A DNA stretch of 64,000 nucleotides from positions 26,694,740 through 26,758,739 of the forward strand of contig CAIIXF020000009.1 of assembly GCA_903813345.2 (NCBI GenBank). Direction: 5' to 3'. The stretch is from Owenia fusiformis. Taxonomy: Eukaryota > Annelida > Polychaeta > Sabellida > Oweniidae. The position numbers and the translations under genes are program-made. The notes below the pieces were generated by a model that was not told the origin of the DNA, searched no databases, and was given only the letters and a program-made list of their open reading frames with translations. This document shows, piece after piece, positions 14,102-59,900 of this stretch. Numbering within the stretch: position 1 is the first letter of the stretch; every line of letters starts with the position of its first letter.

Positions 14102-15047
14102 CAAGTTTCTGCACTGTGGGATAAACTTTTGTTTATTTCATTGTTAAATGTTGCATTGTGTTGATTAAAAAGGGAAAACACAAGCTTCAAAACAAACCTA
14201 TTGTATTACAAACTCCTGATAAATCAGACAATGAAACAAAATACGGGATAATAGGTATTTACAGTCAAATGGTCATCGAATCATTACGCCTCTCTTGTTC
14301 CAGTATTCTCTCCCATTTGTCTTGCTTTATTGCTTTCTAAACTGTTGAGATAATGTGTTGTTATTGTTACATTGTAGGTCTTCAATTGAATCTAAGGTCA
14401 GAAAGACTCACGTATCCAGATTTTTTTATTTATTATCGGATTTTTACATTTGAAGTTAACATACACACATGTTATATTTGTAGTAAAAAGGCGCCTGGTG
14501 ATATAGATCTATAGGTCTCCCTTAGTTCCATCCTTTGATTACCCCGCAACGTCAGATTTTCTTCAAAGTTTACCTCTCACAAAAGTAAGACTTAATACTC
14601 ATCAATTCATATATACTTATGTATATTATATACATGTATGTAATACATTCTCACGTGTACATTTGGCTATCTAACCATGATAATGAAGTCTGAAAATCAC
14701 AACACTACATTCTGCCCATCATGAGAAACTATGCCTTTCTCATTAGCTGCTTTCCAGTTCACCGTTACTGCACTCGATTACGCTAGATCAGTCCCGGTAA
14801 CAAGATGGCGGTTACGATTAGAAAGTTCGGTAAGATTTTTCTTTTTTCCTTATTTCTCAAGATGTCGGCACAAACATAAATTAGCTTCATATGTTTCTGA
14901 AAGTTCAAGTAATTTCGCATATCTAGCTGCCACACCAGACTCCATAACATCTCAATGAAAACAAAAGATGGTTATCACCATCAAAAATCCAAAATCATTC
15001 GTAAAGTCAAAAGGCCTACACTAACCGAAGCCGCAATGCGACACTCT
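14102..15047. other. Spacer between two minisatellites
   Basis: Short open frames at 14158-14340 and 14731-14958 have no recognisable domain. I see no supported gene. Confidence 0.45.
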
Positions 15048-15926
15048 ATGGGCTCTGGGAAGATCAGTCTGCACTCTAGGAATATCAACCTGCACTCTAG
15101 GAAGATCAACTTGCACTCTAGAAAGATCAACCTGCACTCTAGGAAAATCAACTTGCACTCTAGGAAGATCATCCTGCACTCTAGGAAGATCATCCTGCAC
15201 TCTGGAAACATCAACCTTCACTCATCACAAACATCAACCTTCACTCTAGGAAGATCAACCTGCACTCTGGGAAGATCAAGCTGCACTCTGGGAAGATCAA
15301 TCTGCACTCTAGGAAGATCAACCTGCACTCTAGGAAGATCACCCTGCACTCTAGGAAAATCAACTTGCACTCTAGGAAGATCAACCTGCACTCTAGGAAG
15401 ATCATCCTGCACTCTGGAAAGATCAACCTTCGCTCTAGGAAGATTAACCTTCACTCTAGGAAGATCAATCTGTACTCTAGGAAGATCATTTTGCACTCTA
15501 GGAAGATAACCTGCACTCTAGGAAGATAAACCTACACTCTGGGAAGATCAACCTGCACTCTGGGAAGATCAACTTGCACTCTAGGAAGATTAACCTTCAC
15601 TCTAGGAAGATCAATGCACTCCAGGAAGATAAACCTGTATTCTAGGAGGATCAACTTGCACTCTAGGAAGTTCAACCTGCACTCTTGGAAAATCAACTTG
15701 CACTCTAGGAAGTTCAACCTGCACTCTAGGAAGATCAACTTGCACTCTAGGAAGATCAACCTGCGCGCTAGGAAGATCAACTTGCACTCTAGGAAGATCA
15801 ACCTGCGCGCTAGGAAGATAAATCTGTACTCTGGGAAGATCAATCTGCACTCTAAAAAGATAAACCCGCGCTCTTGGAATATCAATCTGCATTTCAGGAA
15901 GATCAACCTTCACTCTATGAAGGTCA
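15048..15926 (+). repeat. 21-bp minisatellite array (~40 copies)
   Basis: The consensus is CTGCACTCTAGGAAGATCAA plus one base. The unit length is a multiple of three and lacks stops in most frames, so open frames of 60-184 codons appear on both strands (for example 14955-15509 and 15614-16114 on plus, 15532-15906 on minus). On plus they read as heptads such as LHSRKIN. Openness in several frames at once and the lack of a conserved start argue against coding. Confidence 0.95.
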
Positions 15927-17360
15927 CCAAATATAGATCAAACGTTGAGAGCTTTCCAACCTCTCGACTTCCAAGCTTATTGAATTGGGACTACCAATAT
16001 ATGGCTTCTCAATTAAATATTAGGGGATGGCTGTCACAAATCACAAAACATCACTACTTACAAGCTAAGCTTTTTTATCGATCTGAAAATTATCAAAGAT
16101 GTTCGTGGTATTAACATTGATTTTGCACTACCCTGGGTCATACAACTTGTATGGTGATACCCTCTGAGTTATTTTAAAGATATAACAATGATGATCGGGT
16201 AAGATATTTACGAATATGACCTTAAAAGCTTCTAAAGTATTTGTGGGTGTTTAATAAATATGTGAACTTTTCAACAGTTACGTATCGGTGGATGACAATG
16301 CGTTGCATTGATTGGTTGGTCGTTTTTGGACTATTTCATCTTATTTGATGACATTGGAAACACGAAGACATGCTCTCAAACAGTGTATTTGAAAATACCA
16401 TCCCCTGAAAGTTTTTGCCAGTACAAAACATAGCCGAACGCAGAAATCAAATTGTCTGGCATAATACAAAATAATCATCCTCAGGCTGTCCGAAAAATCA
16501 GATAGAAATACCATACTAAAGTGAATTAAATACAGAAAATGAAAGATTTCCTCTAGGGACCTTTACCACAGATCCTGATTTAGTGACATGTGAAATCGAC
16601 CTGCAGTCCGTGTAGCATTCAGTTACATCCATGTTACAAAATAGCGGAATAACCATCATTAATTTTCTATGAAATATTACAAGTCAGAAAGGAAAGGATT
16701 AAATGTCGCAAGGGTGCATGTTTCGTTCCTTTTATCTCTCTAAAGCCGACAGCAAATTTTTCATTTTTGCCATTTGAAGGCTTTGAGTCTATTATGGTGT
16801 GTACCAGTTCATATTACATCCTACCCTCTGCTAGAGTTTGACATCGTAGACACACGAAAAATTCAGTGATGAATGTTTGGTTTGGGCAGTGTTCAATAAG
16901 AATATGTGGGCAAGAACTAAATTAAGTTTTCTGTAGATTTACAAACATGACTTCACGTTACGAGGACATATACTTCTAATATGGATGGTTTGGATAAGGT
17001 CAAGTGGTAAAACCATCAGTTTTTTTCGAGTAGATCCCATTTTGATCCATCAAGGTATTACATATGACTGAAGGAATACTGTACACTGGGTAGTATGGGT
17101 AGATCTAGTTTGAAATAATTGTTATACATAGCCAGATTATTCTCAGGTTCAAGTTCAACATGAAGACAATGTATGTAAGCTAGTAAGTAGTATGCCGAAA
17201 AGTATTCTGTTGTATCTTGATTAAGTAAAACAATATAAATACGTTGTTAAGAAACTTAAAAGAACTTCAGAATTAGCAAGTTTTCGAAACTAACATGTAA
17301 CGTTTACGATGTACCATAACAGGTTTACATGTTAATTGCTTATTGCTCGTTAATAATATT
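15927..17360. other. Non-coding DNA after the 21-bp array
   Basis: No open frame with recognisable features, no paired splice sites and no strong repeat were found. Confidence 0.45.
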
Positions 17361-36898: not shown

Positions 36899-39800
36899 GG
36901 GGAATCGCAGTGTCTGACGAAAAAAAGCTGATAAAAGATCTTCTCGAGAAGTATGAAGATATCGGCAAGGTGGGACGGCCCGTCCATAATCAAACCTCCG
37001 TGATACAGGTTCAGTTCGGCATCGCTCTCGTTCAAATACTGGACCTGGACGAAAAGAATCAAGTTCTAACAACAAATGTTTGGGGAAGATACGTACGTAT
37101 GAATTGCTATTTAGTTATCTAATAAGCGCCAATATACTTTTAAAAAGCTATGAATGTACTAAATCAACATTTGAGATTGAAATATATACAGTGTCTATAT
37201 ACAAGTAAAAACTTCCTCAGAAAGAATGTAATCAAATGTCCCCTGTGAACTGATCCCTAGACGCTTATAGTATCACCATATTTGTATATACCAGTGGAAA
37301 TTGAATAGTATCATACATATCATTATCATGCAAGTGTGTCAAACTATAAACTATTTTCACATGGGTGTCATTTTTCAGTTTCTTGAATCTCAATACAATG
37401 CAACATCACGAAAATGCATTTTCATTAAATGTCTCATCGTTAAATACATTTTAATTACATTTTTCTAAAAACTCGTTTTATAGAACTGGCACGACATCCT
37501 TTTAGTGTGGGACCCTAAAGACTATGGAGGTGTTGAACATGTTAGAATACCTACAGAGTATATCTGGACACCTGATATTGTACTTTATAACTAGTGAGTA
37601 TGTAACGGTGGCCCCAGAATAATGTTCAAAGAAACGTTTTTACGATTCTATTCCTTACAAATCAGTGAAATGTTGTAATGTAGAGTTAGTAAGTTTACAT
37701 GATTGCTGTGTTCAATTACGTTCATTCTTGAATAGATTTTGTGTTAATATTGTCTTGGATTATAGCCACAATTTATTAGAGTATAATTATGCATTACATT
37801 TAACATAAAAACATAAGTTGAAATATTGTTTTAAGCATTGTTTTGGTTGGTCCTGTCAACGAATCTGGTTAAGAAAGACTAGGTCATACTGTCAATTTGA
37901 TTTGATTTTTTATATTTGTCCTGTTTGACATCTTTCTTATAGTGACTTACAGTAATTGTAATTATTATCTTATCAAATGAATTATAGGAAATATTATGCA
38001 CACAATGTTATATTTTATTTTACAGTGCAGACGACAGATTGGAAGAGAAACGCAAGGCCCTTGCGGTAGTGTCTTACAAGGGGGAGATAATATGGATTCC
38101 TCAAGCTATATACAAGAGCACATGCTCTATAGACATCACACACTTTCCATTCGATGTTCAAAACTGTACCATGAAATTCGGATCATGGACATATGATGGA
38201 TTTAAACTTGACATTATTTTCTTCAACAATGATGAAAAAGTTGATCTGAACGACTATATACCCAGTAATGAATGGGATGTGGTTCAGAGTCCAGCGAGGA
38301 GGAATGTCAAGAAATATCCGTGCTGTGTTGAACCGTATCCAGATCTGACATTTACTCTGATTATTAGAAGAAAAGTAGCATTTTATAACTACATTTTGAT
38401 ACTGCCGTGTGTCCTGCTGTCTTCACTTACACTCGTGTTGTTTTGGCTTCCACCAGAGAGCCCTGCAAAAATGGTGTTAGGTATGTTAATTGACTCCATT
38501 TTGCCTCGACCCTCTGAAGCCACCCCCCTCGTTCATTTTCTCTCAAACTGCCGAATGATATAAACAATGACTAGGTATGCTAATTGACCCCTTTTTGCCT
38601 CGACCCTCCGAAGCCCCCTCCCCCCCCCCGTTCATTTTCTCTCTCCGTAGTGGTGATATGATGCTTACGCTTGATGGATAATTCAATATTTCATATCATC
38701 AAGAGATGTTCTTGACAATACTCATGGTCAGAGAAGGTTTGGGGGCTAAAGTCGACAAAGATTTGAGGCAAGATAAAATAAAGTCCTCAAATTCTGTAAT
38801 ATGCAAGAGAAATCCATCCATCCCTTGCTAGACAATACTGTGCAATAGATATATGTATGCAATGTATTATTTCAGGAATGAATATATTTGTGGCCTTCTT
38901 TGTATTGTTGCTTCTTCTGGCTGAGTCTACTCCCCCTGCTGCCTCGAGTATACCGCTCATTGGTAAGTTCACCTTTAAATCCAAACCAAAATATACACTG
39001 TAGGTCCACAACACAATCAAAATAGTCTTTGATCATCTACCTTAACAGAATACACGTTGCCATCCCACGAGAAGGTATATCAAGGTGCTCAACATATATA
39101 TTGTTCTTGTCATATATTTTAGGTGCATATTATTGTCTGAATATGATAATGATAACGCTTTCAACGTTTCTGTCCGTCATCGTCATCAACCTGTACTTCC
39201 GAGGGGATAGGAGAAATAGGGTACCAAAATTTGTCAAAACGGTAGGTCAGAAAAGATGAAAAAATGTCAGATCATCTTAACATTATCGCAACTCACTTGC
39301 ATACATGCTAATGATGTATACTTCCACAGATAGAGTATTTCAGTCATTGTTTTCGAAAAATAAACTTTGTAAGAATTGTTGGGATGTTGCAATCGATACA
39401 CAACAGTACAAGTGACAAATGTTTTTCTTTATCTTAACTGCAACAGAACACGAACTCCAAACCAACTAATAAACACATCAATAATCAGTACACATTTAAC
39501 AGAAATATATCATGCTTTCCAAAGCAAAACAGTGCCAACACCAGACATAGTTCTTATTCTGCGTGTTCCGTAAATCTTAATTAGAAACACAGCAAACTAA
39601 AACACATTGTCACTTATTGGAAAATAGTATCACAGAGAAAATCATAGTTTTGGTAATAAATCTTCATCAGTGCGACCGAACGTTTACAAACGCTTCTAAG
39701 GTATAATTATGAAGAAACATCATTTTATTAAGATTAATTATATAGTTCAGGTATGATTATCTAGAAGCATCTTTTTGTTCACATCTCTTATAAATTTCAG

Positions 39801-40262
39801 CTTATGATAGATTGGGTGGCCCGGATTTTGTGTATGCGCGGTGAACTAAATCTTCCACCACCCGGTCCAAAAGAACACAAACTTGACAAAGTGATTGTTA
39901 ATGAACAGAAGGAAATAAAGCGAAAACGAAAGAAAGCGGCAAAAGAAAACAATTGTAACAACGATATGAAATACAACAAGTTTCAGATGCACGAAACGTC
40001 AACATTTTCAAACCACAAAACTGAAAATACGTCACCAGATAAATCTCCAATACTAATGCACCAGTCAATGGAGAATGACATTCGAGAAATACGAAAATAT
40101 CTAAGACATGTAGCAATGAAAATGATGGAGAAGGAATCAGTGGGGAAAATCACAATTGAATGGCGGGTAGTAGCGTTAGTGTTAGACAGAGTGTTCTTTT
40201 TTATGTATCTTCTGGCCATAATTGTTTCCTTGGCAACGATATTCCCCAAAACAGAATCATGA
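36899..40262 (+). CDS. Nicotinic acetylcholine receptor alpha-type subunit, predicted anion-selective
   Basis: Six exons, all GT-AG: 36899-37092, 37484-37593, 38026-38480, 38876-38962, 39123-39241 and 39801-40262 (stop TGA). Phases match throughout. The product is a pentameric ligand-gated channel subunit of the plasma membrane, about 475 residues without its signal exon. Visible family features: TTNVW and the loop-D Trp (NWHD) across the first junction; loop [10 protein letters not shown]; Cys-loop [15 protein letters not shown]; loop B GSWTYDG; vicinal cysteines YPCCVEPY, which make it an alpha-type (agonist-binding) subunit; TM1; TM2 ending AES; PLIG before TM3; a short basic cytoplasmic loop (about 105 aa); and TM4 at the C end. 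NQT and NCT are likely glycosylation sites. Oddity: the TM2 entry reads ESPAKM where cation channels have DSGEKM. A possible poly(A) signal AATAAA is at 40625. Subunit number cannot be assigned by eye. Confidence 0.93.
38477..38644 (+). repeat. Tandem duplication of the receptor exon-3 splice donor region
   Basis: Copy one (38477-38545) contains the exon end and real donor GTATGT at 38481. Copy two (38571-38644) repeats the donor as GTATGC at 38575 and the following CTCGACCCTC...GTTCATTTTCTCTC block. The offset is 94 bp. The second donor is in the intron and would add an in-frame stop if used. Confidence 0.85.
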
Positions 40263-42239: not shown

Positions 42240-43148
42240 GAGATTTGGGCAAACTGCACCATCCCATCGTGAGAGATCACCGACAGCCATTATTTCCTTC
42301 CCTGGAAGGAAGGTGTGACGAATTCCAAAAGTACACCAACTGGCCTTTTGCATTACGCCTCACACGTCAATCAAGTATGGGCACATTTCTTGGGTTCGCG
42401 TATCGGACTGTATTAGCTTATCTTAATTGTAATATTGATCAAGTGAAAAGTAAATAGAACTATCATATTTCATGCTTTAACTGTAAAGTATGCTCTGGAC
42501 TACCAAGATAAAAGTGCAAAATTAATGAGACTCTTGTCAAGTTGTGGAATAGAATCTGGATTCATCGTTTTTTAACGAAATAAAATAAAACTCAGTAAAA
42601 ACAATAAAAAGCGCGAAGTGATCATGAAATGTCATCATATATTTTCAATTTTTCAAAGGCATCTTAAAATAAAAACAAAATAAAGAAAATGTGGAATGTC
42701 CCATTGATGACGCGTATTCAAAGGTAACGAAGGGACACGTGTAAATGATTCACTATGGAATTCATAAGGTAAGGTGTGGATCACATTTATGGGGAGATAA
42801 ACGTAATATGCACTTCACGAGTATTTACCAGATTGGTGAAAAGAATAGATACTGTCAATTATTAATATTCGTAGTACATGGTCGTTGGAATTTACACTGT
42901 TACAAGTAAATTACGGATGTGATTTGAAATTCGAATGAGAATCCAGGAATTTAAAGTTTGAGATTTCTTGATGTTTTGGACTAATGCAGCTGGATTAATT
43001 AACTCACGGACACGTAGCTATTATCATTCTGATGAGTGATGCAAATAATGTAATTTAGAGCGCATTTGAGACGGCCAGTACAAATAAGTGACTTCTAATT
43101 CTCGACGGATTTAAAGGCAAACTATATATAAGTAGACCAAGTGACAAG
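42240..43148 (+). promoter_or_regulatory. Upstream region of claudin-like gene 1, shared with gene 2
   Basis: The region matches 46640-48133 in two blocks. The near block (42792-43012 against 47831-48057) is strongly conserved and includes ATAGATACTGTCAATTATTA and TTGGAATTTACACTGTTACA. A distal block (42250-42460 against 46680-46890) is looser. An octamer ATGCAAAT is at 43039 in this copy only. A TATA-like ACTATATATAAG sits only about 25 bp before the ATG, too close to drive this start, so transcription may begin further upstream. Confidence 0.6.
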
Positions 43149-44940
43149 ATGCCTGTGATCAAGACAACAACTGTGAGTTCATCAGGCAACTCTGCATCAG
43201 TCCACACCATCAGTTTTAAGGGAATTTCCGGGGGGATATTCTTCTGTCTGGCTCTAGCCTTGGTGCTATATGTTGTCGGGTTTGCGACTACCGGTTGGAC
43301 GATCGTATTGAACTCACATTTTGGCTTGTGGGAGTCATGCGTCTGTGGTAGAGCACCATCTGGAGCAGGTTAGTACAAATAAGCAGAAATAGCCTCTAGT
43401 CGACTCGGACCATGGTCAACATGGACCCTAGTCAACTTGGACCTACATGTACATTTTATTTATTTTTATACTTTGTTAAAATGAAAAGGAATACAAAAAA
43501 ATTAATAAATTATAAATGAAAGATTAATTAGGGTCATTGTTTATCATTATTTTATGTACTATCATAATAATATAATACCAGTGACACGCATGATATGATA
43601 GATAATACTAAATTGTTGTTTCTTCTTTTGATTTTAGATTGGTTTAGAGCAGTGCAGGCTATGATTATAATTGGACTGATAGGTCTCGTAGCGTGTATGG
43701 TTTGCGTCTTCATTTACATGTGTGTCCACGCTGTCAACAAAAGCAACACTATTCTGGCCTTAACAATTATCTGCTTTGTCACCGGTGAGTTCAACAATGA
43801 GACGGGAAATAGCTCACCAACCGAGTTAAACGTGAACATAGCGTTAACTACAGCGTTTTTGTAATACTATTGAATATATTCATCTGGGGGTCATTAACAG
43901 AACTTTCGCAAAGTTACGAATTCGGAACACTTTCGTAAGTCATTCATAAGTTTTATCGTTCGTAAACGAATTTCAAATTGTGACGTCATCTTATATCATT
44001 ATTTAGCACAAATAAAAATATGATGTCATTTGATATCATTGCGCGCTGTGATCAAACCTGTCTCCGCGATTTCAAAGATTCCCAGCTCAGGAACATATTT
44101 GCTTATCATGTAAGAATAGGTAGATATTTTAGCTTGAAACTCAGCATGTATATAGAGAACAATTTCTTTTTGCCAACCTGTATACCTTACATAAGAATTG
44201 GATGAGAAATGTGCCATTCGCAAAGTTATGAAAGGGTCTGAGGTGCTATTAAAGTTACGAATGAAAGCATACGTGACGTCATTTTTTCGTAACTTTGCGA
44301 ATCGTTCGTAACTTTACGAAAGTTCTGTTAATGCACATTTTCCAAATTCGTAAAATTAACAATTGATTTGCGAATTCGTAACTTTACGAAAGTTCTGTTA
44401 ATGACCCCCTGGATAGTATTTAGTATTATAACTTATTGATATGCTTGACTTATCCATTTTGAAACTTACTTGCAACGTTTCGATGATAGACGCAACCTAT
44501 CGAAACGTTGCAAGTAAGTTTCAAAATGGATAAGTCAAGCATATCAATAAGTTATAGTTTTTGTAATACGTTTTTTGTTTACGTAACATATTTGTATACT
44601 GTACACGCGATGAGGTAAAGCGTCAAAAAGTATTGTACTTTATTGTGTATTGTATTGTGTTCGTGTGTTGTATTGTATTTTAAGTATTATGTTTTACTGG
44701 ATGATGTATTTTCGAAACAAGTGAGTGAATGACGTAACGTTTCCATTGTCTCGACGGAAATGTACCATTTATTTATATTTCTGTTCTGTTTCAGTGGTCT
44801 TCATGTTAATTGGATTCATTATCTATGGAGTGAAATCGTTCAACGTTTCCTGGTCATTCGTTCTCTGTGTCATCGGAGGCATTTTCACGCTCATCGCTGG
44901 TGTTCTCTCAGCAGTACAAATGCAGCAATCAAGAGCATAA
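43149..44940 (+). CDS. Claudin/PMP22-like four-helix membrane protein 1
   Basis: Three exons: 43149-43368, 43638-43784 and 44795-44940 (TAA), two phase-1 GT-AG introns, 170 aa. Four hydrophobic segments lie at about residues 26-48, 81-103, 113-134 and 143-165. The first extracellular loop carries the claudin-type signature W50, GLW59-61, C64 and C66, then FRAVQAM leading into TM2. NVS at the second loop is a glycosylation site conserved in the paralogs. Members of this superfamily act in cell junctions or as membrane organisers; the precise role is unknown. The first loop is much shorter than the ~50 residues of typical claudins, and its cysteines form CxC. Start chosen because the N-terminal MPV is shared with gene 3. 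No AATAAA was seen within 180 nt of the stop. Confidence 0.88.
43886..44409. mobile_element. 524-bp MITE in intron 2 of claudin-like gene 1
   Basis: GGGGGTCATTAACAGAACTT at the left is matched inverted at the right end (44387-44409). The interior repeats TTCGTAACTTTACGAA-type palindromes. Gene 2 lacks this insert in the equivalent intron, which is only about 100 bp, so it arrived after the duplication or was lost there. Confidence 0.8.
44427..44556. repeat. Perfect 58-bp-arm hairpin
   Basis: 44427-44484 and 44499-44556 are exact reverse complements, separated by a 14-nt loop. It lies in the same intron, about 17 bp past the MITE. No ORF. Confidence 0.95.
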
Positions 44941-46639: not shown

Positions 46640-48133
46640 ATTCACATACCTTGGTAATCAATTCCTCACGATTATTGACTGGGGAGGCACGAATGTTTGA
46701 GATTGTACTATTCCATCGTGAAAGATCACCTACTAACAGCCATTGGTTCCTTCCTCTAGGAAGGTTTGTTAATTCCAGAATTACACTATCTAGCCTTCCA
46801 ACTTCAAAAGTAACCCAAACGTCAATTAATTATGGCCAGACTTTATGGTCATAATGTACTTGTCATATTGATCAAGGAAAAAGTAAATAAACTCTCGTTA
46901 ATTCCTATAAATGTATTTAAGTTTAACCCGACCTACCTACTGTAGATATACGTACAAATCCAATGTCGGGAAACTCGTGTCAAATTAAATTCAGTATTCC
47001 ATGCCTACTATATACTGAAGTCCAAGGTACATAAAGTTCAGGAATATATAGTGTATCTAGAGAGCGGCTGTTTTTTATTATTCATATTTAAACAAAATAA
47101 TTCTTTTTTTTAATTGGAAGGTTGGAGGGTAGATTGTATTCTACAGACTCAAGTAATATATTGTATATCATAATATGTATGTTTATACGTTTTGAGTTTC
47201 AGTGTAAGAAATAGAAAAAAATGTAAAACGGACCATTGATCAATTTCACAGTTCATTTTTACAGACTCACAAAATATTTATATAATACATTAATCCATTT
47301 TATCCTCTTCTAATAGATTTATAACATATTTGTTCGCAAAAAGCTAATTCAAAATTGTGCAATGGACCTCTTGAAATCTTCAATAATTGAACCATTGCCC
47401 TAATTTGTCATTTTGTGTTGCACAGCAACCAGAAACATGTTAAGGGATTTTGATTCCACCGATATGAACTTATTAAAAGAGTGATACTACAGCAGGATGA
47501 TCTTATTTACTAAAAAGAGTTTTTTAGTATGAAATACCATCCAGTATGACTCTGGTTCAATTTAAATTTTTCATTTAGTCACACTTGAACTGTTTTTCTT
47601 TCACAAATCCATAAAATATTTATGAAATATATATCAATCCGTTTTTGAGTAAAAATTCCGATAAAATGGACCCTTGTTGAAATCTCCAATAATGAATAAA
47701 TGGCGCCATTTTGTCAGGCTCCGAAACATGTTACAGGATGTTAATTCTACCAATTTGACCTAATATAAAGAATCCTGCTTTTAGGAAATTTTTGATTTTA
47801 AATAACTTTTAGGTGTGGATTTTATTTAAAGGGCGATAAAGGTACTCTCCGCGAGTGTTTACTAATTTGGTGAACAAAATAGATACTGTCAATTATTAAT
47901 ATTCGAACTACATGGGTGTTGGAATTTACACTGTTACAAGTACATTACGGATTGGATTAGATATTCTAATGACTTCCAGGAATATTGAATAATTTGTGAG
48001 ATTTTGTGATGATGTTGGACTAATTTTTCAGTTGGATTAATTAATTAACTCGCGTACATATAAATATACAGATATATCTTTAATTATTTTATGTGCTACA
48101 AATGATGTAAGACCGAATTATACAAGTAACAAG
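46640..48133 (+). promoter_or_regulatory. Upstream region of claudin-like gene 2
   Basis: Paralogous to the region before gene 1 in two blocks (46680-46890 and 47831-48057). Between them is about 0.9 kb not matched upstream of gene 1, with two loosely repeated CCATTTTGTCA/GTTGGAC-type segments. A TATA-like CATATAAATATA at 48056-48067 lies about 70 bp before the ATG, a plausible core promoter. Confidence 0.55.
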
Positions 48134-49095
48134 ATGCCAGACATCAGTTTTAAGGGCATTTCCGGGGGAATCTTTCTCTGCCTAGCCGTCGCTTTGGTGT
48201 TATATGTTGTCGGGTTTGCGTCTATCGGTTGGACGGTCGTACTGGACACACATACAGGTCTTTGGGAGTCATGCATCTGTGGTAAATCATACGTTGTAGC
48301 AGGTAAGTACAATTAAACAAAATGGCCTCTCGTCAACTTTGACGCTAGTCAACTTGGACCCCAGTCATCTCGGACCTTAGTCAACTGGTCATTTTGGACC
48401 TGTTTTCTATATGTTTTAATGATTTAATCACTAAAATGAAAAGTGATACTAAAAGAAACATTAATTAAATAAAATGTAAAATAAAATAATAGTTAGTAAT
48501 GCATGGTGAAAATAAATGTGACGTCATTTTGTGTTTAGTCTGCTAAAATCAAAGGATTAAAAACAAGACACAGAGTACAGAATCGCATCCTAACAGTTCT
48601 GGGGACGGAAATCCTAGATCCTAAATGTACACAGAATTATACACAGAAATAATATATTTCAAATTAAAATTGAACTGGTATTTTTTATTTTAGATTGGTT
48701 TCGTGCAGTGCAGGCTATGATTATAATTGGACATGTAGGTCTTGTAGCGTGTATGATTTGCGTCTTCATTTATATGTGTGTCCACGCTGTCAATAAAACC
48801 AACACTATTCTGGCCTTAACAATAATCTGCTTTGTCACTGGTGAGTTATAATATGAGACGTCAACCGAAAACCTAGCGTGGGCCATTTAGAATTTTTGAA
48901 ATTGGTTTCACGTAAACATTATATTTCTGTTCTGTTTTAGTTTTATTCATGTTGGTTGGATTCATCGTCTACGGGGCTAAAGCGACCAATGTTTCCTGGT
49001 CATTTGTTCTCTGTGTCGTCGGAGGTATTTTCACGCTCATCGCTGGTGTTCTATCTGTGGTACAAATGCGACAATCACGAGGCATAACAGACTGA
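48134..49095 (+). CDS. Claudin/PMP22-like four-helix membrane protein 2
   Basis: Exons 48134-48302, 48694-48840 and 48941-49095 (TGA), both introns phase 1, 156 aa. It is the closest relative of gene 1; exon 2 is nearly identical. Signature residues are W33, GLW42-44, C47 and C49, then FRAVQAM. It lacks about 17 residues of the N-terminal tail found in genes 1 and 3 (MPDISFKG against the longer Ser/Thr-rich tail). The C end also differs, running past the point where gene 1 stops to end RGITD. AATAAA at 49229 is a likely poly(A) signal. The conserved frame and splice sites suggest a working gene. Confidence 0.87.
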
Positions 49096-56294: not shown

Positions 56295-56976
56295 CATCTT
56301 TTGTGGTATTCGTAATGTAATCAACTCCCAAACATCCCAACCCACACGTCCAATCAAAGATAGGGTGTGATTCCGAAAAATGAGTGATTCATTAACGGAA
56401 CTTAAGATCATGATAAAATGAGGAAGCTAATTATAGAAAACATTTTCACTTTAAATCGGTTTGTTAATAAACACTGCAATATTCTTGAACGAGCTAGCAA
56501 GTAGATCGGAAATGAACATAAAGTTTGTTTGTAATTAGTGCAGTGTAGCTTATTCCCAGTTATCATCCCAGTAAACTTCCAGAGGGATTTCTATAGTCTA
56601 TAAAGCCTATACACTGCTAGGAGAATTTATGAGGAGAAGTTGAGCTGAAACAGAGCATACTACTTATAAGCTGCAATCTTGTGTAGCATTAGCTGGATAG
56701 CTTCTCATACACTCTGTGTTTCTTCATTTGTTGCTTGTTGGTGTGTTAGTAGAAAGCCACTGATACTGAAACTGGATATATATATATATGATTATACACA
56801 GCACTTTTGTAGCATCTTGTGGATTATCAGGAAGACAGTTCAAGGCTGTAAGAGCATTATTTTGTAATATTGGAACATTAAAAAGCTCGGATCTGCTAGC
56901 CATACAACTGAGCTATTAGTAGTATTGCTAAATATTGGATTAAAATAGTCAAGGATACACGGAAACAGTAAACGAG

Positions 56977-59900
56977 ATGCCTGTTGTAAGTAGCCGCACA
57001 ACGACCGTGACGTCCCATAGCACAGGGACTGCTGTCCATGCCATTAGCTTCCGTGGCTTGGCCGGGGGTATCTTTTTCTGCATTGCCATCGCCCTTGTAT
57101 TATATGTGGTCGGATTTTCGACCACAGCTTGGATTGTTACGCGTTATGACGATGAGGGACTTTGGGAGAGGTGTAGATGTGATTTGAACGGACGTGATGA
57201 CGGTAAGTTTAGACGCAGAGCGTGTCAGTAATAGTATTAATAAAGGGCATGTGACAACAATAGAAGACTGGGAATAAATATAATATGTTTATAAACATAT
57301 TTACACATCAACACATTGCAATAACAAACATAAGGCTAAAAACATACGTATCAATGCTATTCTAGGTCGTGAAATATAAGTACTTGAAGTCTTAATGTCA
57401 ATAATTTGCAAAATATCATTGCAATTTACAAAAAAAACTAGCATTACTGGGCATTACTTTTTTTGGGGGGGGCTATTAAGAAATTGGGCCCCCATTTTCA
57501 GATTTTGGTCCAAAATTAGGGCCCATTTTTGGCCCCTCTTGATTTTCAGATCCGCCCCGTGCTCTAGTACACAATAACACACAGTCCTGGTGTGGTGCTC
57601 GATAATACACACCACTAGTACTCAATACCACAAATCACTGGTACTCAATAACATACAGCACAGGTACTCAATAACATACAGCACTGGTACTCAATAACAC
57701 AAATCACTGGTACTCAATAACACAAATCACTGTTACTCAATAACACACAGCACTGGTACTCAATAACACACATCACTGAAACATAACACAAATCACCGGT
57801 GCTTAATAACATACAACACTGGTACTCAATAACATACAGCACTGGTACTCAATAACACGCATCACTGGTACTCAATAACACAAGTCACTGGTACTCAATA
57901 GCACACAGCACTGGTACTCAATACCACAAATCACTGGTACTCAATAACATACAGCACAGGAAAAAAATAACATACAGCACTGGTACTCAATAACACAAAT
58001 CACTGGTACTCAATAACACAAATCACTGTTACTCAATAACACACAGCACTGGTACTCAATAACACACATCACTGAAACATAACACAAATCACCGGTGCTT
58101 AATAACATACAACACTGGTACTCAATAACATACAGCACTGGTACTCAATAACACGCATCACTGGTACTCAATAACACAAGTCACTGGTACTCAATAGCAC
58201 ACAGCATTGGTACTCAATAACACACATCACTTAAACTCAATAACACAAATAACTGGTACTCTATAACATACAGCGCTAAAACTCAATAACACAAATCACT
58301 GGTACTCAATAACATACAGCACTGGTACGCAATAACACACATCAGTAGTGCTCAATAACACAAGTCACTGGTACTCAATAGCACACAGCATTGGTACTCA
58401 ATAACACACATCACTTAAACTCAATAACACAAATAACTGGTACTCTATAACATACAGCGCTAAAACTCAATAACACAAATCACTGGTACTCAATAACATA
58501 CAGCACTGGTACTCAATAACACACGACATAACACACAAGCAAAGATCAGACAGCACACCACTTACAACCGAGAAACAAAATGTGCTTATTGTAGATACAC
58601 GTAATGCTTTTTATGTACAACATGATGACTATGAATCACAAAACAATTTTCACTTTGGGAAAGTGCATGTATGCAACCCTTTAGGCAGATAGTTATCAGG
58701 TGACATATCATTTAAACTACTTTTACGTGTCACGATCTTTACACATCAACAATAGATCATTTACCTTCACTGACGTTTAGTTTCTGTTTATAAATACGTA
58801 TATTTTTATGTACATCGTGATACTCGCGCCTCCTATGCCTATTGGACTTCTTTTTTATTATACTATTAGGGTCGCCCCATTGATCCGAATACACGTCAAC
58901 TACCTTTTATATACACCAATCTTCAACAAAAGCCGGGGAGGTAGCCTATATTGCCTCTTTGCAAGTTACATTGTCTTCAATTCCTTGCCTATTTGTCTCT
59001 GACTGGCAGCACTTACCCTACTTGAATCCTCGTAGTGTTTTCTAACGTATGATTTCGGAGCCGATTGCAGAAGTACAAGATACAGTGGTATGTGTGTCAA
59101 AACGTAGTTTTGACATAAACCAGACGTAATAAAACGAGCTTAACCTAAATCTCCAAATCATTTATTTATTGTTTGTAACATGAATGTAGTGTAAACTACC
59201 CCTTCTTGGCTCTTCTTCACAGTCTATTCTAAAAAGTTAAGAAAATTGTTGATTAACTTCATCACAAGAAATCATGGCCAGCTATAAGCTTCTTTCTGGA
59301 AGCATATTTCTAGTTGAAGGCAAAAAGATGTGATGAGTATCAGAATGGAAAATTTGGATTGAGAACAACCTAGTAAGGAATTCATAATTTAAGTCTTACA
59401 CTAATGTCTCCGACCAACCCGTCTTCGATCAGAAGAGAGGCAACATGAAGATCGAAAATGCGCTCTAAACGAATCTAAAACCTATTCATCCTCCGATCAC
59501 AGGGCTTCAGAATCCAGAATACTAGACACCTGCTTAGGAGGATGAACCCTATTTAGCAAGTAAATCTATGGGTTCCAAACGAATTGATTAGCCGTATTAG
59601 CCTATTTTCCAGTTCTTTTTACGTACCGTAAAACATGTATACCAGAACACCTGGCTAATCTACTTTTCGCTTCCTTTTCACCTCCAATTGTTGACTCCTG
59701 CGTTAAAGAAACCTTGAAATGTGAACACCTCCTAAAACTAAACAGTCATAGTTGAAAGATTAACCTATGAACACTTTTCATAAAAAAAATCACAAACAAA
59801 ATTGAATGAGACAACAACCACCAGGGCACAATTCATTTACATTACCATGTTATACTAAAGCCTACCTGTATTGGCCCTATACTACCTGCTGGCAGGTATA

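Follow-up and report, generated by a model that had tools for sequence, protein, structure and literature searches.

A nicotinic receptor subunit with a Pro-Ala-Lys pore entrance, a predicted acetylcholine-gated chloride channel of the annelid Owenia fusiformis

The window, that is, the whole 64,000-nucleotide stretch of Owenia fusiformis DNA that was analysed, carries an intact nicotinic receptor subunit gene on its forward strand at positions 36899-40262. The species is borne out by published primers: of four printed for Owenia (PMC8111721), three match the genome exactly, each at a single site, namely the syt1 forward and reverse primers, which face each other 32 kb apart on C11, and the elav1 reverse primer on C1. 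The elav1 forward primer has no match, perhaps because it crosses an exon boundary. Six exons of the receptor gene were found, and together they form an open frame of 474 amino acids that runs to the stop codon. All six exons have AG acceptors and the first five have GT donors. The features of the gene are listed here, with those of its closest paralog given for comparison.

36899..37092, + strand: exon 2, the first coding exon found, encoding the N-terminal ligand-binding domain; acceptor AG TTGTTTCAG, donor GTACGT; exon 2 of the paralog is also 194 bp
37484..37593, + strand: exon 3, with loop D (Trp of YNWHD) and loop A (DIVLYN), placed by splice sites and phases; the paralog has two 110-bp copies
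38026..38480, + strand: exon 4, with the Cys-loop, loop B (FGSWTYDG), loop C, TM1, ESPAKM and TM2 as far as 4'; the paralog exon is likewise 455 bp
38456..38473, + strand: ESPAKM, the TM2 entrance, with Pro at -2', Ala at -1' and Lys at 0'
38481..38875, + strand: intron 4, 395 bp, splitting the codon of TM2 Gly 4' (phase 1); donor GTATGT, acceptor ATTTCAG; the paralog has the same break
38876..38962, + strand: exon 5, which completes TM2 (Asn 6', Val 9', Ala 10', Phe 11', Phe 12', Glu 20') and continues into the TM2-TM3 loop
39123..39241, + strand: exon 6, with TM3; the paralog exon is likewise 119 bp
39801..40262, + strand: exon 7, with the intracellular loop, TM4 and the stop codon

Exon 2 starts in phase 1, and thus an upstream exon encoding the signal peptide is absent from the gene model. 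It was not found in scans of about 21 and about 25 kb upstream of exon 2, which returned few and weak hydrophobic ATG frames. The same scan gave no candidate for the paralog in the 9.5 kb upstream of it, and a comparison of the regions upstream of the two genes yielded no convincing signal exon, the matches having the appearance of dispersed repeats. Through a 51-bp direct repeat (38478-38528 and 38572-38622, 88% identical), intron 4 contains a second copy of the exon-4 donor sequence.

Elsewhere in the window, none of ten neighbouring open reading frames reaches the Pfam cut-off. Three similar exons of the GISGGIFFCLALALVLYVVGF type lie on the + strand downstream of the receptor (43092-43370, 48041-48313 and 56944-57228). 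Their matches to TMEM37, claudin and other families are below the cut-off, and they are perhaps a tandem claudin-like cluster. Positions 14913-16114 hold a coding-like tandem array with several open frames, in which LHSRKIN is repeated on the + strand.

The protein encoded by the receptor gene contains both domains of the family, Neur_chan_LBD (PF02931, 227 bits) and Neur_chan_memb (PF02932, 139 bits), each above its cut-off. Its best matches in the Protein Data Bank are nicotinic alpha4 (3.6e-99), alpha3 and alpha7, and the best 60 of 353 matches are all named acetylcholine receptors. The residues of the acetylcholine (ACh) site are in place: the Tyr of loop A, the Trp of loop B, the Trp of loop D and the Cys-loop. 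Loop C reads YPCCVEPY, which combines Tyr-x-Cys-Cys, with its vicinal cysteines, and a second Tyr. The alpha-type vicinal cysteines and the positions of the aromatic box are assigned from vertebrate receptors. The full alpha-type site described in the initial annotation is thus borne out by loops A, B, C and D. The residues of these loops, together with the vicinal cysteines, make ACh the likely ligand and a homomer possible.

The entrance of TM2 sets the subunit apart. Its six residues ESPAKM are indeed encoded at 38456-38473, by the codons GAG AGC CCT GCA AAA ATG, followed by GTG TTA G and the GT donor at 38481. The spliced reading confirms that the Glu at -1' is replaced by Ala and that Pro stands at -2'. 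It also agrees with the unusual TM2 described earlier, with Val 2', Asn 6', Val 9' and several Phe residues. When positions are counted from Lys (0'), the pore has Pro -2', Ala -1', Val 2', Asn 6', Phe 8', Val 9', Ala 10', Phe 11', Phe 12', Val 13' and Glu 20', and there is a further acidic residue, Glu, at -4'. The span first assigned to the feature, 38456-38962, does include the motif and TM2, but it is not contiguous coding sequence, as intron 4 lies within it. The likeness to glycine and GABA-A receptors proposed at the same time holds for Pro-Ala before a basic 0' residue, but it does not extend to spacing. The Pro and Ala of the window gene substitute Gly and Glu in place, without an extra residue, so that 6 residues separate the TM1 Trp from the Pro, compared to 7 in all 13 P-A-R stretches of the Owenia genome. 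Membership of the glycine/GABA branch is ruled out by this spacing and by the nicotinic best matches in the Protein Data Bank.

A protein search of the genome found one close relative of the gene. It lies on the same chromosome as the window, at C9:37.715-37.725 Mb, and is 63% identical over exon 4. Exons 2-6 of the two genes are equal in length (194, 110, 455, 87 and 119 bp). Identity is 75/93 over TM1-TM3 and 139/214 over the ligand-binding part, 46/117 over the intracellular loop and 25/38 over TM4. The paralog encodes the same ESPAKM with the codons GAA TCT CCA GCT AAA ATG. Its TM2 shares Asn 6', Ala 10', Phe 11' and Phe 12' with the window gene but has Ile 2', Met 9' and Asp 20'. The initial annotation had raised a local error as a possible source of Pro-Ala. 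This is excluded, because the paralog has the same six residues with synonymously changed E, S, P and A codons; chance or a sequencing error at the motif is ruled out in the same way. Over 462 codons, pS between the two genes is 0.879, which is saturated, and dN is 0.335. Saturation of synonymous change means that no ratio can be given for the pair; judged from these codons, its protein is constrained and under selection. No third gene near the pair appeared when the paralog's exon 4 was searched against the genome (91 matches): identities fall from 100% and 68% to at most 52% for the following full-length matches and at most 57% for short ones. Both genes are alpha-type and have the loop-D Trp, and therefore each of them offers the two faces of a homomeric site.

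Exon 3, which carries loops D and A, is present twice in the paralog (L001 1174-1283 = C9:37715873-37715982, and L001 3874-3983 = C9:37718573-37718682). Each copy is 110 bp long and has splice sites, and the phase is the same. As 110 cannot be divided by three, a transcript with both copies would be out of frame, so that the two should be mutually exclusive. The predicted alternative use would give the ACh site different complementary faces. Mutually exclusive versions of exon 3 are described for nAChR alpha6 in most insects (PMC1919356).

Most of the loci returned by family and protein searches of the genome were fetched, from sequence that included the large contigs C1-C3 and C5-C12, and their TM1-TM2 junction was read. 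Since a genome search gives the best candidates, the counts are lower bounds. At L061, and in part at L088-L094, the junction exon lies beyond the fetched stretch. Among the candidates listed, and excluding the window gene, the junction is present in 61 stretches from 60 of 61 loci. The Glu at -1' is kept in 45 of the 61 nicotinic-type stretches read. The 16 without it comprise one PAK (the paralog), four PGK, ten GAR, GSR or GTR, and one SGK (L030). With the window gene included, PAK occurs in 2 of 62 stretches. Among the 24 loci L064-L087, where the glycine/GABA-type class was assigned by eye, P-A-R was found in 13 of 16 stretches of that class, the other three having SAR, SDR and ASR. Seven of these 24 loci are nicotinic-type with GEK, and L086 shows neither pattern. 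The junction of L095 is also GEK. Published gene numbers for annelid nAChRs range from 52 to 129 (PMC6896357).

The ten GAR, GSR or GTR genes (L002, L003, L004, L005, L007, L009, L013, L014, L027 and L045) are nicotinic-type and largely intronless, and they have no Pro at the junction. Together with L006, which keeps the Glu, they form one starred group in the tree. The 25-kb contig C155 carries five of them, among which L045 is in two frames. L090 and L091 have nicotinic-like ligand-binding exons with an unusual Cys-loop, followed by no TM1 match in the fetched DNA. They possibly encode soluble proteins resembling acetylcholine-binding protein.

The tree was built from exon-4 sequences of 58 Owenia rows (57 fetched and the window gene), with the six motif columns dropped and with no outgroup. 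Rows shorter than 110 residues, among them L054, L055, L059 and L060, were left out. The two PAK genes pair with a support of 98/89, and the pair joins three PGK rows with a moderate, unstarred support of 86/89. At 1.26, the branch of the PGK rows is long. When the three PGK rows and seven long rows were removed, the support of the PAK pair was 100/97, and the pair was joined weakly (88/54) to L057, whose row may be a mosaic because its locus contains the loop-C/TM1 exon twice and pieces were merged in row building. A grouping of the PAK pair with the alpha group of L008, L010, L011, L012 and L016 is absent from the best tree, and it is not rejected (p-AU 0.094). These trees give good support to a single origin of the PAK pair, and a common origin of the PAK and PGK genes appears likely.

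The PGK genes (L047, L053, L056 and L060, on C8 and C519) are alpha-type nicotinic, with Pro at -2' and Gly at -1'. By splice reading, TM2 of L053 continues as GLVVLLIEVIQMMMLNTT after PGKILF, and a similar exon lies next to L056 in L101. Where it could be read, the PGK TM2 is largely hydrophobic and has Glu at 11'. These genes are likely to be a divergent branch of the Pro-Ala lineage.

Taken together, these data suggest, with a probability of about 0.75, that the subunit forms an ACh-gated chloride channel in Owenia fusiformis, either alone or with the paralog or other subunits. ACh would bind the conserved aromatic box beneath the loop-C disulphide, and the pore would open. The glutamate ring at -1', which is the basis of cation passage in nicotinic receptors, is replaced by Ala preceded by Pro. 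An inner mouth lacking this negative filter and having Lys at 0' would let anions pass. The result, in cells whose internal chloride is low, would be fast cholinergic inhibition. The ligand, the anion selectivity and the inhibitory role are what we infer from the relatives of the receptor, through which ACh probably inhibits cells.

Several properties of the pore count against the anion reading, namely the in-place Pro, the acidic residues at -4' and 20', and Val 13'. The engineered anionic alpha7 is reported to combine an inserted residue with a change at 13'. The subunit could have lost its cation filter and nevertheless be weakly selective or still cationic, if an in-place Pro lacks the geometry of the glycine receptor and the rings of acidic residues at -4' and 20' prevail. 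The absence of the additional residue of the P-A-R genes is in keeping with this, as are Glu -4', Glu 20' and Val 13'. It is made unlikely, however, by the fluke Pro-Ala nicotinic subunit, which is reported to pass halide (PMC4055736), and by the prevalence of Pro-Ala with a basic 0' residue in the glycine/GABA-type stretches of Owenia itself, the SAR, SDR and ASR exceptions notwithstanding. The subunit might instead depend on partners, either cationic or likewise of the Pro-Ala type, in heteromers whose selectivity or conductance it tunes, and form no channel alone. Two different Pro-Ala genes do persist, TM2 is bulky (Phe 8', 11' and 12'), and SmACC-2 of Schistosoma, which has no vicinal cysteines, was read as non-alpha (PMC4055736). 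But the faces of a homomeric site are complete in both PAK genes, alpha-type with the loop-D Trp as they are, and SmACC-1 is reported to function as a homomer in the same work, so that an obligate partner seems decidedly unlikely.

That the gene is a pseudogene, or that the motif is an artefact of assembly or sequencing, is barely credible. The signal exon escaped the upstream scans and the 51-bp direct repeat runs across the exon-4 donor, but the frame is open through six exons with good splice sites, and the motif recurs in a second gene with different codons against a background of saturated synonymous change.

If the subunit does form a chloride channel, as we favour, the gene predicts fast inhibition by ACh through chloride in Owenia, and it represents a natural case of a charge switch by substitution without insertion. 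The nicotinic kind of chloride channel is known from snails and flukes, and it now appears in an early-branching annelid lineage, Owenia being placed within the clade that is sister to the rest of the annelids (PMC8111721). For the snail and fluke channels, common ancestry, convergence and gene transfer have all been considered (PMC4055736). The position of Owenia and its intact, duplicated Pro-Ala gene make a common spiralian ancestry testable by a tree. A tentative joint reading, somewhat more doubtful than probable, gives nicotinic chloride channels a single origin that predates the split of molluscs, flatworms and annelids, through in-place replacement of Gly-Glu with Pro-Ala and not through the lengthened loop of glycine/GABA-type genes. 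Owenia would then have come to possess a conserved PAK pair, in which one member has loop-D exons that are mutually exclusive, and a PGK branch that evolves fast; with its largely hydrophobic TM2 and Glu 11', this branch would possibly be a non-conducting or newly selective receptor.

Among the titles listed from the mostly open-access literature on ACh-gated chloride channels of molluscs and annelids, anionic nicotinic receptors, nicotinic receptors of Owenia and annelid cholinergic inhibition, none describes an anionic annelid nicotinic subunit. In the accessible text of the annelid nAChR survey (PMC6896357) the word 'anion' occurs in the reference list only, and it is absent from that of a leech receptor paper (PMC6054404). 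A nAChR tree of 649 sequences took in Owenia (PMC10338036), and the examined text of that study, on Alpo4 of Alvinella, makes no mention of anionic annelid subunits. Alpo4 is also an annelid nicotinic-type protein, but it is described as keeping the Glu at -1' and lacking the vicinal disulphide (PMC10338036).

Glycine and GABA-A receptors resemble the Owenia gene in having Pro-Ala ahead of a basic residue at the entrance of TM2, whereas in the 13 P-A-R stretches of glycine/GABA type in Owenia the Pro stands one residue further from the TM1 Trp. The ACC and LGC channels of nematodes are ACh-gated and have a PAR motif linked to anion selectivity (PMC9962794). However, the ACCs of C. elegans are described as nearer to GABA and glycine receptors (PMC4055736), whereas the best solved relatives of the Owenia protein are nicotinic.

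The closest parallels are found in flukes and snails. Schistosome GluCls and ACCs have PAR or PAK, compared to GEK in most nAChRs (PMC9874803). The Schistosoma ACCs are nicotinic-type with Pro-Ala at the M2 entrance, like the Owenia gene, and SmACC-1 is alpha-type according to its authors; it forms a homomeric channel with iodide flux upon application of ACh and nicotine (PMC4055736). By its published description, the flatworm SmACC-2 differs from both Owenia PAK genes in having no vicinal cysteines. In the gastropod mollusc Lymnaea stagnalis, the LnAChR A group (cation) is contrasted with the LnAChR B group (anion) (PMC4193815), and the anion-selective subunits, compared here by description, combine a nicotinic sequence with Pro-Ala as the Owenia gene does (PMC4055736, PMC4193815). 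The Pro-Ala nicotinic subunits of Schistosoma and Lymnaea are reported to form one clade inside the nicotinic tree (PMC4055736). The Owenia gene is best read as a putative ACh-gated chloride channel subunit of this Lymnaea and Schistosoma kind.
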